64,000 nucleotides of DNA from Burkholderia pyrrocinia (GTDB lineage: Bacteria > Pseudomonadota > Gammaproteobacteria > Burkholderiales > Burkholderiaceae). Below the pieces are notes generated by a model. That model was not told the DNA's origin. It worked only from the letters and a program-made list of their open reading frames with translations, and did no database searches. Where the stretch lies: NCBI RefSeq assembly GCF_018417535.1, contig NZ_CP070977.1, positions 2,356,001-2,420,000 on the forward strand, in the 5' to 3' direction. The position numbers were made by a program, and so were the translations under genes. Positions 55,950 through 61,578 of the stretch are shown piece by piece; within the stretch, counting starts at the first letter, position 1, and each line of letters begins with the position of its first letter.

Positions 55950-57098
55950 GTGCCGCAACGACAGCCGCAAAACGTCCATCCGGCCGACGGCATCTACTTC
56001 GGGCTGATGTCGGGAACCAGCATGGACGGCGTCGACGGTGTCGCCGTGCGCTTCGAGGCCGGCAAGGCGCCGGCCGTGCTCGCGGAAGCGTTCGTCGGCT
56101 TCGCGCAATCGCTGCGCGACGCGCTGTTCGCGCTGCAGCAGCCCGGCGACAACGAGATCGACCGCGAATCGCTCGCGGCAAACGCGCTCGTCACGCGCTA
56201 CGCGGTGTGTTGCCACGAATTGCAGCGCACCGCCGGGCTGTCGCGCGACGAGATCCGCGCGATCGGCGTGCACGGCCAGACGGTGCGCCATCGCCCCGAG
56301 CGCGGCTATACGCGGCAACTCAACAACCCGGCGCTGCTCGCGGAGCTGACCCAGGTCGATGTGATCGCCGATTTCCGCAGCCGCGATGTGGCCGCCGGCG
56401 GCCACGGCGCGCCGCTCGCACCGGCGTTTCATGCGACGGTGTTCGGTGCGCCGGGCGAGACGCGCGTCGTCTGCAACCTCGGCGGGATCAGCAACATCAC
56501 GATCCTGCCCGGCGAAGGCGGCGACGTGCGCGGCTTCGACTGCGGCCCCGCGAATGCGCTGATCGATGCGTGGGCGACCCGCCATCTCGGCAAGCCGTAC
56601 GACGACGGCGGCAAGTTCGCCGCGCGCGGCACCGTGCACGCGCCGCTGCTCGAAGCACTGCTCGACGAACCGTATTTCACCGCGCCGCCGCCGAAAAGCA
56701 CCGGACGCGACCTGTTCAATCCCGCATGGCTCGACGCGAAGCTCGCCGCGTTCGCGCAGGTCGCGCCGCAGGACGTGCAGGCGACCCTCACGGTGCTCAC
56801 CGCCGTCTCGGTCGCACGCGAGATCGCGCAGCACGCACCCGGCTGCAAGGCCGTCTTCGTGTGCGGCGGCGGTGCGCGCAATCCGGTGCTGCTCGACGCG
56901 CTCCGGCATGCGCTGCGCGAGGCCGGCGTGCCGGCCACAGTCGATACGACGGCCGCGCTCGGCGTGCCGCCGCAACAGGTCGAGGCGCTCGCGTTCGCGT
57001 GGCTCGCGTACCGCTTCACCGCGCGCCAGCCCGGCAATCTCGCGACGGTCACCGGTGCGCCCGGCAACCGCGTGCTCGGCGCGCTCTACCCGCGCTGA
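55950..57098 (+). CDS. anmK: Anhydro-N-acetylmuramic acid kinase
   Basis: AnmK phosphorylates 1,6-anhydroMurNAc during peptidoglycan recycling. The 382-residue protein has [20 protein letters not shown] (phosphate-1 loop), [34 protein letters not shown] and [13 protein letters not shown]. The start codon is GTG preceded by AGGAGAA. It is divergent from tyrS, an arrangement common in proteobacteria. Confidence 0.95.
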
Positions 57099-57136
57099 CG
57101 CGATAGCTGCCGCGCGGCGGGTGCCACGCACGGGCA

Positions 57137-57166
57137 TAAAAAAACGGGGCATGAAGCCCCGTTTTT
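57137..57166. terminator. Bidirectional terminator between anmK and erpA
   Basis: AAAAACGGGGC ATGAA GCCCCGTTTTT has A and T tracts on both sides and serves the two convergent genes. Confidence 0.92.
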
Positions 57167-57200
57167 CATTCCGGCGAACCGGCGCGGATCTGCCGTACGC

Positions 57201-57572
57201 TCAGACCGAGAACGACGAGCCGCACCCGCAGGTGGTGGTCGCGTTCGGGTTCTTGATCACGAACTGGGCGCCGTTGATGTCGTCCTTGTAGTCGATCTCG
57301 GCACCGACCAGGTACTGGTAGCTCATCGAGTCGATCAGGAGCTGGACGCCGTTCTTGTTCATCACGGTGTCGTCCTCGTTGACTTCCTCGTCGAACGTGA
57401 AGCCATACTGGAAGCCGGAGCAGCCGCCACCCTGCACGAACACGCGCAGCTTCAGGTCGGGATTGCCCTCTTCGTCGATCAGTTGCTTGACCTTGTCGGC
57501 CGCGGCGTCGGTGAAGACGAACGGAAGCGGCATTTCGGTCGTCGTTGCTGCGGATTCGGTAACAGCGTTCAT
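57201..57572 (-). CDS. erpA: Iron-sulfur cluster insertion protein ErpA
   Basis: The 123-residue A-type carrier delivers [4Fe-4S] clusters to apoproteins. Cluster cysteines are in [20 protein letters not shown] and the C-terminal [12 protein letters not shown]. It follows rplM-rpsI on the same strand with a terminator between them. Ribosome binding site is GGAGAG. Confidence 0.96.
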
Positions 57573-57713
57573 TGCGAACTCTCCAAAAAGCTTTAGCCGC
57601 TATTGTAGGGCCGATCAGAAGATCGTGCTGAAGTCCATGAAATCAATAGGTTCTTGTCGATTTCATCAAACCTGCCCGTGCGAGCCGCCGCAGCGCGGGC
57701 CTGGCAGCGGGCA

Positions 57714-57748
57714 TAAAAAAACCGCCAGCGCGAAAGCTGGCGGTTTTT
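57714..57748 (-). terminator. Rho-independent terminator after rpsI
   Basis: On the minus strand AACCGCCAGC TTTCGC GCTGGCGGTT is followed by TTTTTT. Confidence 0.93.
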
Positions 57749-57790
57749 CCGGCGAACGCCGCCCGGAAGCGGCGCGGCCATGAAGCGGAA

Positions 57791-58183
57791 TTAACGCTTC
57801 GAGAACTGCTTGGCGCGGCGTGCCTTGCGCAGACCGACCTTCTTACGCTCGACTTCACGCGCATCGCGCGTCACGAAGCCTGCGCTCGACAGCGACGGCT
57901 TCAGCGTCGCATCGTAGTCGATCAGTGCACGGGTGATGCCGTGGCGCACTGCGCCTGCCTGACCCGTTTCGCCGCCGCCCGTCACGTTCACCTTGATGTC
58001 GAACGTCTGGCCGTGGTTCGTGAGTTCCAGCGGTTGACGCACGATCATCAGCGACGTTTCGCGCGAGAAGTAGTCAGCGATGGGCTTGCCGTTGACGACG
58101 ATGTCGCCCTTGCCAGCCTTGATGAAGACACGTGCGACTGCGCTCTTGCGGCGGCCCGTACCGTAGTTCCAGTTACCGATCAT
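57791..58183 (-). CDS. rpsI: 30S ribosomal protein S9
   Basis: The 130-residue protein begins [20 protein letters not shown] and ends [16 protein letters not shown], the conserved basic tail that touches the P-site tRNA. It follows rplM by 10 bases. Confidence 0.98.
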
Positions 58184-58193
58184 GTGGGTCCCC

Positions 58194-58622
58194 TTAGATC
58201 TCGAGCGCCTTCGGCTGTTGAGCCGAATGCGGATGCGTCGCTTCTGCGTAGACCTTCAGCTTCTTGATCATCGCGTAGCCGAGCGGGCCCTTCGGCAGCA
58301 TGCCCTTGACCGCCTTCTCGAGCGCACGGCCCGGGAAGCGTTCCTGCATCTTGCCGAACGTCGTTTCATAGATACCGCCCGGGTAACCCGAGTGACGGTA
58401 GTACTTCTTGTCCAGCGTCTTGTTGCCCGTGACCTTCAACTTGCTCGCGTTGATGATGATGATGAAATCACCAGTGTCGACGTGCGGGGTGAACTCAGGC
58501 TTGTGCTTGCCGCGCAGACGGCGTGCCACTTCGCTGGCAACACGGCCGAGAACCTTATCCGTCGCGTCAATCACGTACCATTCGCGCGTCACCTCATGGG
58601 CTTTTGCGGAAAACGTCTTCAT
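58194..58622 (-). CDS. rplM: 50S ribosomal protein L13
   Basis: The 142-residue protein starts [20 protein letters not shown] and contains [20 protein letters not shown] and YRHSGYPGG, all standard L13. The open frame continues 34 codons upstream, but the ATG at 58622 gives exactly the family length. It is first of rplM-rpsI with a long 5' leader. Confidence 0.98.
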
Positions 58623-58743
58623 GATCGATCCAAAAAAAATGCTTTGCCCGATGTGTTCTTCCTGCTTGTCTGTGTGCGCTTCGAGGCGCGGTGCAGGCTC
58701 TCCCTGTTCTTTTTCCGTGGGCATGAATGCGGAAAAGCCCTGA

Positions 58744-58773
58744 ATTATAAAGGAAATACGGCGAAGCGGTCAA
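58744..58773 (-). promoter_or_regulatory. Promoter of rplM-rpsI
   Basis: On the minus strand TTGACC (58773-58768), an 18-base spacer and TATAAT (58749-58744) form a strong sigma70 promoter. The predicted leader to the rplM ATG is about 115 bases. Confidence 0.8.
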
Positions 58774-58932
58774 AGGGAATCCACGTCCCGTGTCCGTGGC
58801 GCCCGAAATGGGCCAAAATCCGGTCGTGCCCGACAAACCAGGCGAACCGAGCGCCCGGGGAGGCACCCATCGACGCGCGGCACATGACCTTGCCGCGCCA
58901 GACCGGCCGAACACGGAAAACAACAAACAAGC

Positions 58933-59238
58933 ATGATGAAACAACGACTCACGCCCTTCTTCGCGGCCGCGCTGCTGGCCGCCGCGGCGCCTGCCGTCGC
59001 CGCTCAGGCCGGCTGCGAAGCCAAGCTCGACGCGCTCGATGCGCGCATTGCCGAAGCCCGGACCGCCCATGCCGAGGATCGCGTCGCCCGCCTGCGCGCG
59101 GTGCGCGAACGCGTCCGCCACTTCTGCGCGCGCGGCCACGGCCATGCGTCGGCCGTCCGCGCGCCGGCACCCGACGCACGCTCGCACGGCACGCCGCCCG
59201 ACGCGACTTCGCAGCCGGTCGCGCGACAGCCCGCGTGA
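58933..59238 (+). CDS. DUF1090-like small exported protein
   Basis: The 101-residue protein has a signal peptide (FFAAALLAAAAPAVAAQA, cleavage near residue 24) followed by GCEAKLDALDARIAEARTAH and RLRAVRERVRHFCARG, which resembles the start of DUF1090 (YqjC-type) proteins: two cysteines bracketing a charged helix. The rest is a Pro/Ala-rich tail. Family members are longer, so this is a short form. Function unknown, periplasmic by signal. Confidence 0.7.
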   Translation: MMKQRLTPFFAAALLAAAAPAVAAQAGCEAKLDALDARIAEARTAHAEDRVARLRAVRERVRHFCARGHGHASAVRAPAPDARSHGTPPDATSQPVARQPA

Positions 59239-59283
59239 CGATCTCGGGGCACGCAAGCCGCGCGCCGATGTTTGCATGAGACG

Positions 59284-59374
59284 AAAAAAAGCCCGAACGG
59301 CTGGTTCGGGCTTAATCCACCATAGGAGGAGGGTGGAGGAGACATTCGGAGGTTGCCGCAGCGCGACAACCAAT
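59284..59374 (-). ncRNA. Candidate small RNA (about 91 nt) with anti-Shine-Dalgarno loop
   Basis: A complete transcription unit lies on the minus strand: a promoter (59410-59382), then about 91 bases, then a Rho-independent terminator. Three hairpins can form. The first is GGTTGTCGC / GCGGCAACC with a tiny loop. The second is TCCACC / GGTGGA with the loop CTCCTCCTAT, complementary to AGGAGG ribosome binding sites. The third is the terminator AAGCCCGAAC CAGCC GTTCGGGCTT plus T7 (59284-59290). A further CU-rich stretch TGTCTCCTCC precedes the second hairpin. No ORF explains it. It may match a transcriptomically described Burkholderia sRNA, which I cannot check. Confidence 0.75.
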
Positions 59375-59381
59375 GAGGCTC

Positions 59382-59410
59382 ATTATACGAACGCGCCGCT
59401 AAGTCCACAA
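59382..59410 (-). promoter_or_regulatory. Promoter of the candidate small RNA
   Basis: TTGTGG (59410-59405), exactly 17 bases, TATAAT (59387-59382). It matches the sigma70 consensus at all -10 positions and 4 of 6 -35 positions, with no protein gene downstream before the terminator. Confidence 0.8.
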
Positions 59411-59412
59411 GA

Positions 59413-59452
59413 AAATTTGCATTACGAAATCACACACCATAATGCGAAATTT
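59413..59452. promoter_or_regulatory. Imperfect 40-base dyad next to the small RNA -35
   Basis: AAATTTGCATTA and TAATGCGAAATTT form an inverted repeat whose inner arms GCATTA-N15-TAATGC are perfect. It abuts the -35 of the small RNA promoter by two bases, the usual place for an activator. The spacing would suit a LysR-type dimer or tetramer. Confidence 0.55.
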
Positions 59453-59700
59453 CAGGAGATTGACTGGAAAAAATTATTTCCTCTTTAAAATCAGTCACTT
59501 GAACCCAACCCAGGCGAGCGGAAATAGCTCGCCTCTAGAGTAAAACCCCTAAAAACAGCAAGAAAATTGCCGTTCGGCACGCTGTTGCGCGCCGTGCGCG
59601 CGGCTCCGGCGTTACACGTCGTGCACCGCATCAGCCGACCGAAGCACTGCGGGCTACAATGCCGGATCGAATCCGAATCAGGCAACGCTGGAGTACAAGC
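59453..59700. other. AT-rich non-coding stretch upstream of the OsmC-like gene
   Basis: No gene is evident. A perfect hairpin AGGCGAGC GGAAATA GCTCGCCT lies at 59512-59534 without a T-run, and TGACTG / CAGTCA are inverted at 59461 and 59492. TACAAT at 59655-59660 is the likely -10 for the OsmC-like gene (leader about 34 bases). Confidence 0.5.
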
Positions 59701-60123
59701 ATGGAATGCAAAGTAAGCTGGATGGGTCAGGACGGCATGGCGTTTTCCGCCCAGACCGGAAGCGGGCATCTCGTCACGATGGACGGCGCGCCCGAAGGCG
59801 GCGGCCATAACCTCGCGCCGCGCCCGATGGAAATGGTGCTGCTCGGCACCGGCGGCTGCACGGCCTATGACGTCGTGCTGATCCTGAAGAAGAGCCGCCA
59901 GGAAGTCACCGGCTGCTCGGTCACGCTGAAGGCCGAGCGCGCGAGCGAAGACCCGAAGGTGTTCACGAAGGTGCACTTCCACTTCACCGTTACCGGCCGC
60001 AACCTGAACCCGGCCACGGTCGAGCGCGCGATCAACCTGTCGCACGACAAGTACTGCTCCGCGTCGATCATGATCGCGAAGACGGCCGAACTCACGCATT
60101 CGTTCGACATCGTCGCCGCCTGA
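59701..60123 (+). CDS. OsmC family peroxiredoxin-like protein
   Basis: The 140-residue protein has the OsmC fold with the redox cysteines in LLGTGGCTAYDVVLIL and LSHDKYCSASIMIAK (about residues 59 and 119). OsmC/Ohr proteins reduce organic hydroperoxides; this one belongs to the shorter YhfA-like group and its substrate is unknown. The terminator just after it marks a single-gene unit. Confidence 0.92.
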   Translation: MECKVSWMGQDGMAFSAQTGSGHLVTMDGAPEGGGHNLAPRPMEMVLLGTGGCTAYDVVLILKKSRQEVTGCSVTLKAERASEDPKVFTKVHFHFTVTGRNLNPATVERAINLSHDKYCSASIMIAKTAELTHSFDIVAA

Positions 60124-60141
60124 GCGCACGGCGCGCGCAGG

Positions 60142-60184
60142 AAAAAAGGGCCGGCGCTCCGCCAGGAGACGCCGGCCCTTTCGC
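60142..60184. terminator. Bidirectional terminator between the OsmC-like gene and rnpB
   Basis: AGGGCCGGCG ... CGCCGGCCCT is a 10-base stem with A6 on the left and TTTCG on the right. It should stop the OsmC gene (+) and rnpB (-). Confidence 0.8.
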
Positions 60185-60192
60185 ATTCGAAT

Positions 60193-60605
<413 letters not shown>

Positions 60606-60612
60606 GACGCGC

Positions 60613-60618
60613 ATTCTA
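60613..60618 (-). promoter_or_regulatory. Candidate -10 of rnpB overlapping the DUF3025 stop codon
   Basis: TAGAAT (60618-60613) ends 7 bases before the rnpB 5' end. Its first three bases are the TAG stop of the upstream DUF3025 gene. The -35 is weak. Confidence 0.55.
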
Positions 60619-61578
60619 GCACTGCGCGCCGCCGCCGGCTGTGCGCGTGCGGCGGCCGCTGCGAAATACCGCCGGATCGTCGTAGAACGCGGCGTCGGCA
60701 TTCGCGTCGCACCAGCCCGGCACGCCGAGCACCGGCAGCGGCGAGAAATCGCGGCTCGTCAACTCGCGCGTCGCAAGTTCGGCGGCGACACGCGCATCGA
60801 CATGCGCGATGCGTTGCGCGTCGGGCCACGAAAAATAGTCGGCGCTCACTTCGACGATCCACGTGTGCGCGGTGCAGGACTTGTAAGGCGCGACGAGCTT
60901 CTCGAGCAGCGCATGGCCGACGAGCCGCGCTTCGCAGCGCGTGCCCCACGCAGCGCGCGCGGCGACCAGCAGCCGCGGCCAGTCGAAGCCGCGCAGTGCA
61001 TCGGCGAGCGCACGGTCGGCGGTCATGAACAGCGCGGCATTCTCGTCGAACAGCGTGAGCGCATCGCGCAGCGTGCCGCGCACGGGCCCGACGCCGCCCG
61101 CCGCGTCGATCGCGGCGGCCTGGCGCGCGTTCAACGCGGCCTTGATGCGCGGATACGCGAACCAGACGAGCGCATTGAAGAAGTCGTGAAGATTGTGGCG
61201 AGTCGGCACGCCGCCGGTGTCGGCGATATGGGCCTCATACGCGACACCGGGCCGCAGCTCGGCCTGCGGCACGAACCGCAGCGGCCTGCCGCGACCGCTG
61301 ACGCGCCCGCCGTCACGCAATGCGCCGTTCAGCGCGTCGCGCAGCGCGGCATCGCCCGCCCGTGCGGCCGCCTGCGCGGCGCGACCCGGCTCTGCGTACT
61401 GCGCAAGCCACGGCGCGGACCAGTCGATCCGCGCGAAATCCGCCGACCCGCTGCCGGCCGCGTGGCCGGCTTCGCGCGGCGGCGCGCCGGTTACGCGAGT
61501 TTCCAGCCGATCGTCTCGCCGCCGCGCAGCGGCACGACCGGCGTGTCGCCCGCGAAGATCTCGTGCGGCAGTTCCCAC
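60616..61578 (-). CDS. DUF3025 domain-containing protein
   Basis: The product (about 320 residues if started at GTG 61578) carries the DUF3025 signature [38 protein letters not shown] with HNLHDFFN, and [17 protein letters not shown]. Function is unknown. It overlaps the end of pyrC. No ATG, GTG or TTG occurs in frame between 61575 and the conserved region, so the true start is uncertain: GTG 61578 overlaps pyrC by 88 bases, and a CTG at 61506 would give 296 residues. The stop doubles as part of the rnpB -10. Confidence 0.8.

Follow-up and report, generated by a model that had tools for sequence, protein, structure and literature searches.

What kind of gene lies in the intergenic stretch upstream of the ribosomal protein operon rplM–rpsI of Burkholderia pyrrocinia, and how far is it kept beyond this genus? 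The stretch was analysed within 64,000 nucleotides of contig NZ_CP070977.1 (hereafter the window), where the sequence-only reading had proposed a self-contained small RNA (sRNA) gene on the minus strand with an anti-Shine-Dalgarno (anti-SD) loop. That interpretation is supported, and the gene is real and of a type already described, also from close relatives: we take it, with a probability of about 0.9, to be an ncS27-type member of Rfam family RF02278, that is, a free-standing, terminated sRNA that would pair with ribosome-binding sites and slow growth. The earlier reading was unaware that the RNA has already been described and that its locus is kept far beyond Burkholderia. Our direct results concern the anatomy of the gene, its family membership, some covariation and the conservation of the locus. 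Taken alone, the window offers an ordinary Burkholderia sRNA of a type already known; novelty may lie in a set of unlabelled, rplM-linked homologues.

Anatomy of the sRNA gene

The sRNA gene, as delimited from sequence, Rfam match and fold, occupies 59283..59374 on the minus strand, and its length of 92 nt presumes the predicted start and end. The predicted start is the A at 59374, 7 nt past a perfect –10 hexamer, TATAAT (59382..59387, minus strand), which a spacer of 17 nt separates from the –35-like hexamer TTGTGG (59405..59410, minus strand); both hexamers, read from the sequence, lie exactly where they had been reported. The pair agrees with the consensus at 9 of 12 positions, and is absent from a strict promoter scan of the window because the –35 hexamer matches TTGACA at only 3 of 6. 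Among the loci listed, –10-like boxes were also seen by eye in Burkholderia-type loci. At the other end, the Rho-independent terminator that had been recognized consists of a stem of 10 pairs with a loop of 5 (59289..59313, minus strand) and a T run to about 59283. The statement that no open reading frame (ORF) lies between promoter and terminator is not strictly true, in that mechanically called ORFs run across this interval on either strand (59004–59408 and 58594–59373, minus; 59039–59488, plus); we know of no support for any of them.

A fold of 95 nt gave the three hairpins anticipated earlier, at –38.7 kcal/mol (z –5.23), and none of 200 dinucleotide shuffles was as stable. The 5′ hairpin (59351..59371, minus strand) has nine pairs in the window fold, the central hairpin (59316..59337, minus strand) joins UCCACC to GGUGGA around the loop CUCCUCCUAU (59322..59331, minus strand; RNA nucleotides 44–53), and the terminator forms the third. 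According to the unpaired probabilities, which together with the fold define these elements, the loop is open throughout (0.82–1.00), in agreement with the proposed anti-SD loop; it has CCUCCU in common with the 3′ end of the 16S rRNA of the same genome, and in this comparison with the 16S tail GGCTGGATCACCTCCTT was found at 6 places in the genome. A further CU-rich stretch, UCUCCUCC (59335..59342, minus strand), comes first along the RNA and had been regarded as unpaired. This holds for its first five bases (0.93–0.98) and fails for its last three, which are paired in the central stem (0.01–0.17).

Family membership and published relatives

Rfam 15 assigns 59283..59344 (minus strand) to RF02278, 'Betaproteobacteria toxic small RNA', with 74.6 bits against a cut-off of 50, an E-value of 3.1e-13 for the whole window and a match over the full model (1–64 of 64), which supports an sRNA gene of the proposed kind. 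This core is the two-hairpin part of the RNA, and resembles a processed short form of the published sRNA ncS27. The same sRNA stays below the cut-offs of RF02877 (NmsR; 27.6 bits against 52) and of RF02837 (anti-hemB; 25.2 bits against 49.5). In the window genome (8.54 Mb, three contigs), RF02278 has four copies above its cut-off and two weak ones. The anti-hemB RNA, also known as ncS04, shares a CU-rich hairpin and a terminator with the window sRNA but is encoded separately: a CU-rich hairpin RNA of that family was seen at C1:2794977-2795059 (minus strand; 84.6 bits) of the window genome. Over most of 57001–61500, the closest of the compared loci are those of Burkholderia metallica, B. lata and B. 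aenigmatica, with 92–93% identity.

Burkholderia cenocepacia J2315 has four such RNAs (PMC4603805, PMC5688073), as does Herbaspirillum (PMC7011215). One of those in J2315, ncS27, is a 92-nt RNA of family RF02278 whose minus-strand gene has a forward gene on either side (PMC4603805 Table 3); its start was seen in dRNA-seq (PMC4603805, PMC5688073), its 3′ end was confirmed by RACE (PMC5688073 Table 1), and it carries a processing site and is processed to a short form (PMC5688073). Levels of ncS27 rise in biofilm and under starvation (PMC4603805, PMC5688073), and its overexpression slows growth while its silencing accelerates it (PMC5688073). For the double-hairpin RNAs, 55–80% of predicted interactions lie near gene starts (PMC5688073), and a figure legend points out CU-rich regions in which reverse complements of ribosome-binding sites are underlined (PMC4603805, PMC5688073). 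A review citing a 2019 paper states that NcS27 is conserved in Burkholderiales and that many predicted targets are affected (PMC10987360). In addition, ncS27 is among 14 positively selected, 'detrimental' genes in two host models (PMC12013268).

The resemblance to reported Burkholderia sRNAs, which had been noticed from the sequence, can thus be made specific, since family, gene order, strand and length all match ncS27, as do the CU-rich loops. The order in the window agrees with that given for ncS27, in that the reverse sRNA gene has forward genes on both sides, here a DUF1090-like gene and osmC. We strongly infer that the window gene is the ncS27 orthologue, on the grounds of family, gene order, strand and length. 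Transcription, processing, the growth effect and repression at ribosome-binding sites have been shown by others in relatives, and by analogy the same would be expected of the window copy.

Such repression is described for Bordetella S17, which shares the core and represses via ribosome-binding sites according to reporter fusions; compensatory mutations restore the regulation of one target, and repression is enhanced by Hfq (PMC11722255). The report places S17 next to coq7 and compares it by sequence with bdhR1; a word search of the available text of this preprint returned neither osmC nor synteny (PMC11722255). The core is also present in the Bordetella loci considered below, and the locus of Bordetella genomosp. 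2 has the order sRNA, coq7, osmC, in keeping with the position of S17 beside coq7. By position, then, Bordetella S17 and ncS27 seem to be the same gene; the Bordetella loci with enough flank, which have no adjacent rplM, come from species of the genus other than B. pertussis. The short form S17S differs from the window sRNA in being derived from an RNA of ~190 nt (B. pertussis; PMC11722255).

The Rfam name may hint at a different role, that of a toxin RNA in a toxin–antitoxin pair, and the name does go back to growth inhibition of E. coli upon overexpression (PMC5688073, PMC4603805). We consider this role highly improbable for the window RNA: the available text of the same reports describes no partner, several dispersed copies exist in the window genome, and S17S was hardly toxic in E. 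coli BL21 (PMC11722255). Because of this last result, the epithet 'toxic' may be a question of dose.

The preferred reading, a growth-slowing riboregulator of the ncS27 type, would operate as follows. The sRNA would be made from its own promoter as a transcript of ~92 nt, ended by the intrinsic terminator, and probably trimmed to about 62 nt. Its two CU-rich stretches, similar to the anti-SD tail of 16S rRNA, would base-pair with the ribosome-binding sites of many mRNAs, such that pairing with Shine-Dalgarno sequences would compete with the ribosome while flanking bases select the mRNAs. Targets would largely be mRNAs of amino acid and sugar uptake and catabolism, and the outcome would be a slowing of metabolism and growth when nutrients are scarce. 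For the window copy, repression is thus predicted from its relatives.

Conservation of the locus

In the window, the sRNA gene is flanked upstream by a divergent osmC-like gene (59659..60123, plus strand; PF02566, E 5.1e-18) and downstream by rplM (ribosomal protein L13; 58194..58724, minus strand; PF00572), which is followed by rpsI (S9; 57791..58183, minus strand; PF00380) as the second gene of the operon. A convergent gene for a small DUF1090-like protein (58933–59238, plus strand; 23.9 bits, just below the cut-off of 24.4) separates the sRNA from rplM, which is preceded by a TTGACC-18-TATAAT box of its own. The RNase P RNA gene (class A, RF00010; 60192–60603, minus strand; 294.6 bits) is close to the sRNA and osmC.

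To describe this neighbourhood in other genomes, we used a 31-nt core pattern, for which public genomes yielded at least 120 stretches. These core loci were selected by the exact pattern, and so the identity of their cores is no result; their neighbourhood is one. Among the matches listed, a divergent osmC homologue within 2 kb accompanies 70 of the 72 core loci with 2 kb of upstream sequence, a same-strand rplM within 1 kb follows 53 of the 96 with 1.5 kb downstream, and both neighbours are present in 28 of the 48 with room on both sides. The 43 of 96 core loci that have no such rplM are, among the matches listed, mostly from Alcaligenaceae such as Bordetella and Achromobacter (the Bordetella genomosp. 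2 locus described above is L017). A homologue of the convergent DUF1090-like gene was found in 7 of the 120 core loci, and the loop continues as CCUCCUUU in 101 of the 120, both again among the matches listed. In Pigmentiphaga, two sRNA copies per locus were observed, either as two exact cores (L097) or as two model matches ~430 nt apart (L079).

That the element precedes rplM in the same orientation raises the alternative of a cis-acting leader or attenuator of rplM–rpsI, whose terminator would tune read-through into the operon. We regard this as unlikely, given that in the window the convergent gene intervenes and rplM has its own box, that 43 of 96 core loci (among the matches listed) carry the element with no rplM within 1 kb, and that RACE confirmed the 3′ end of ncS27 (PMC5688073 Table 1).

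The conservation of the 5′ hairpin, which lies outside the Rfam core, was followed in an alignment of the window copy with 21 of 28 listed core loci, giving 20 distinct rows; five loci identical to the window copy were left out, as were L009, with a longer 5′ hairpin, and L032, which has no ATTG start. Both partners have changed in 3 of the 9 pairs of this hairpin; its innermost pair fails to form in 14 of the 20 rows. For the whole structure, the covariation score, the number of paired cells and the number of doubly changed cells exceed those of all shuffles, but two of the five measures fall within the shuffles (pairs with a double change, 121 of 500; further pair types, 500 of 500). The expectation of compensatory changes in the hairpin arms is therefore borne out in part, by some double changes. 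The central stem is invariant in the 20 rows, which constitutes no test of it, since the loci were chosen by the exact core pattern.

An rplM-linked element beyond the Burkholderiales

Within its own order, the Burkholderiales, RF02278 was detected (E ≤ 0.001) in 188 of 300 genomes, in 114 of them above the cut-off, and it was absent from all 14 control genomes, among which E. coli is named. In a draw of 185 genomes from the class, 51 had matches; two of these belong to the order, and only those two reach the cut-off. All matches outside the order (49 genomes, 54 listed matches) are below it. We examined 52 of the 54, the omitted two being second, tandem matches on stretches already included. 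As many as 35 of the 52 precede rplM in the same orientation, at a distance of 82–664 nt from where its tblastn match begins. The consensus of these 35 linked loci reads ACUCCUCCAUCCUCCUUUGGUGGUU followed by a GC-rich terminator, and in the 48 of 52 outer loci that were scanned with Rfam no family reaches its cut-off at the element.

A covariance model was built from the 35 linked loci, with RF02278 matches that are not beside rplM left out by choice, and run on 134 genomes of the class. At 40 bits or more it matched 47 of the 132 class genomes outside the order, and in 37 of these a copy precedes rplM by no more than 1.5 kb; 21 of the genomes at this level had not been used in building the model, and neither had 11 of the 37. 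The linked share by score was 25 of 32 (≥60 bits), 8 of 11 (50–60), 5 of 11 (40–50) and 2 of 22 (<40) for all matches, and 3 of 9, 5 of 6, 4 of 10 and 2 of 15, respectively, for the unused genomes, where the low value of 3 of 9 arises in part because unlinked RF02278 matches had been excluded from the model. The median distance from match to L13 domain is 169.5 nt for the 40 linked matches. With this model, built from other loci, the window copy itself is recognized as such an element, at 51.3 bits and with the L13 domain 697 nt downstream.

Outside the betaproteobacteria, a cis-acting leader is conceivable and is the main rival of the sRNA reading, and both the short median distance to rplM and the 35 of 52 outer loci upstream of this gene would suit it. 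High-scoring copies away from rplM in other orders (genomes G405, G314, G361 and G388) argue against it. A different objection is that the outer RNAs could be unrelated CU-rich sRNAs of separate origin, since terminated CU-rich RNAs score weakly with the model: six checked stretches at 32–37 bits proved to be PrrF (five, all of family f210) and SorX (one), and scores in the thirties therefore prove nothing. PrrF (RF00444) and SorX (RF02784) share a CU-rich stretch and a terminator with the window sRNA but form separate Rfam families. We nevertheless think separate origin improbable for the rplM-linked set, which shares the CUCCUCCAUCCUCCUUUGGUGG core (found by a model favouring that core) and a common position at rplM that would rarely be expected by chance; moreover, in a draw of 150 genomes from the phylum every match at 40 bits or more is in the own order. 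None of the 24 listed class genomes outside the order in that draw reaches 40 bits (113 matchless genomes are unlisted), and the element therefore has a patchy distribution, with several heavily sampled families lacking it.

Many of the linked loci also have a strong promoter. Enough upstream sequence was available in 32 of the 35 for a promoter test, in which a promoter-like pair with at least 10 of 12 consensus matches occurs within 110 nt before the core in 20 of 32 loci versus 14 of 640 shuffles; the window pair, at 9 of 12, lies just under this level. With at least 9 of 12 matches, the counts are 25 of 32 versus 97 of 640, and the spacer is exactly 17 in 22 of the 25. The 36 nt before the core have a mean fold z of –2.2 (24 of 32 below –1), compared with –0.33 (9 of 32 below –1) for a control window 150 nt further up. 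Covariation over the 35 linked loci amounts to 48 doubly changed cells versus 7.6 in shuffles; of the nine doubly changing pairs, eight are in the terminator, as would be expected of any terminator, and one is in the central stem.

NmsR/RcoF of Neisseria (RF02877) has a 5′ hairpin, a UCUCCUC stretch, a CU-rich loop and a terminator in common with the window sRNA, a likeness already noted by Sass 2017 (PMC5688073). The two top RF02877 carriers, taken as Neisseria, score 33–34 bits with the model, no more than PrrF, and NmsR relatives in other families score 36–46 bits; locus L151 gave no match. In genomes of the order, 17 places are listed by both RF02278 and RF02877, as judged by eye, all below the RF02877 cut-off, and Rfam 15 assigns neither of the two to a clan. 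Descent of NmsR by position was also considered and is unsupported, as only one of 20 stretches with RF02877 matches (L153) is beside rplM and osmC.

For the rplM-linked homologues, no description was found in the open-licence papers searched. We infer that the rplM–osmC copy is ancestral and that the rplM-linked genes in other orders of the gammaproteobacteria share its origin, and a function of the elements outside the order is presumed. The RNA known so far may accordingly represent a single branch within an rplM-linked family that is older and has been retained patchily. In its widest form, which we advance tentatively and at somewhat less than even odds, slightly reduced by the outcome of the phylum draw, the proposal is that a three-hairpin anti-SD sRNA gene, driven by a sigma-70 promoter of its own, has stood beside rplM–rpsI since before the betaproteobacteria split off and was lost in many lineages; RF02278, ncS27, S17 and perhaps NmsR would be its branches, and the tie to rplM would reflect a brake acting on translation in general through imitation of the 16S tail. 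The RNA that Rfam calls 'betaproteobacterial' may then represent a single offshoot of an older gene, one that holds a fixed place at a ribosomal locus and goes unlabelled in other lineages. If true, this would bring separately named sRNAs into one frame, and would make it testable how an RNA directed against a very common mRNA motif gains specificity and why it is kept beside rplM.

As a separate observation, the strong copy away from rplM in G361 (locus L221) lies ~100 nt from 6S RNA.
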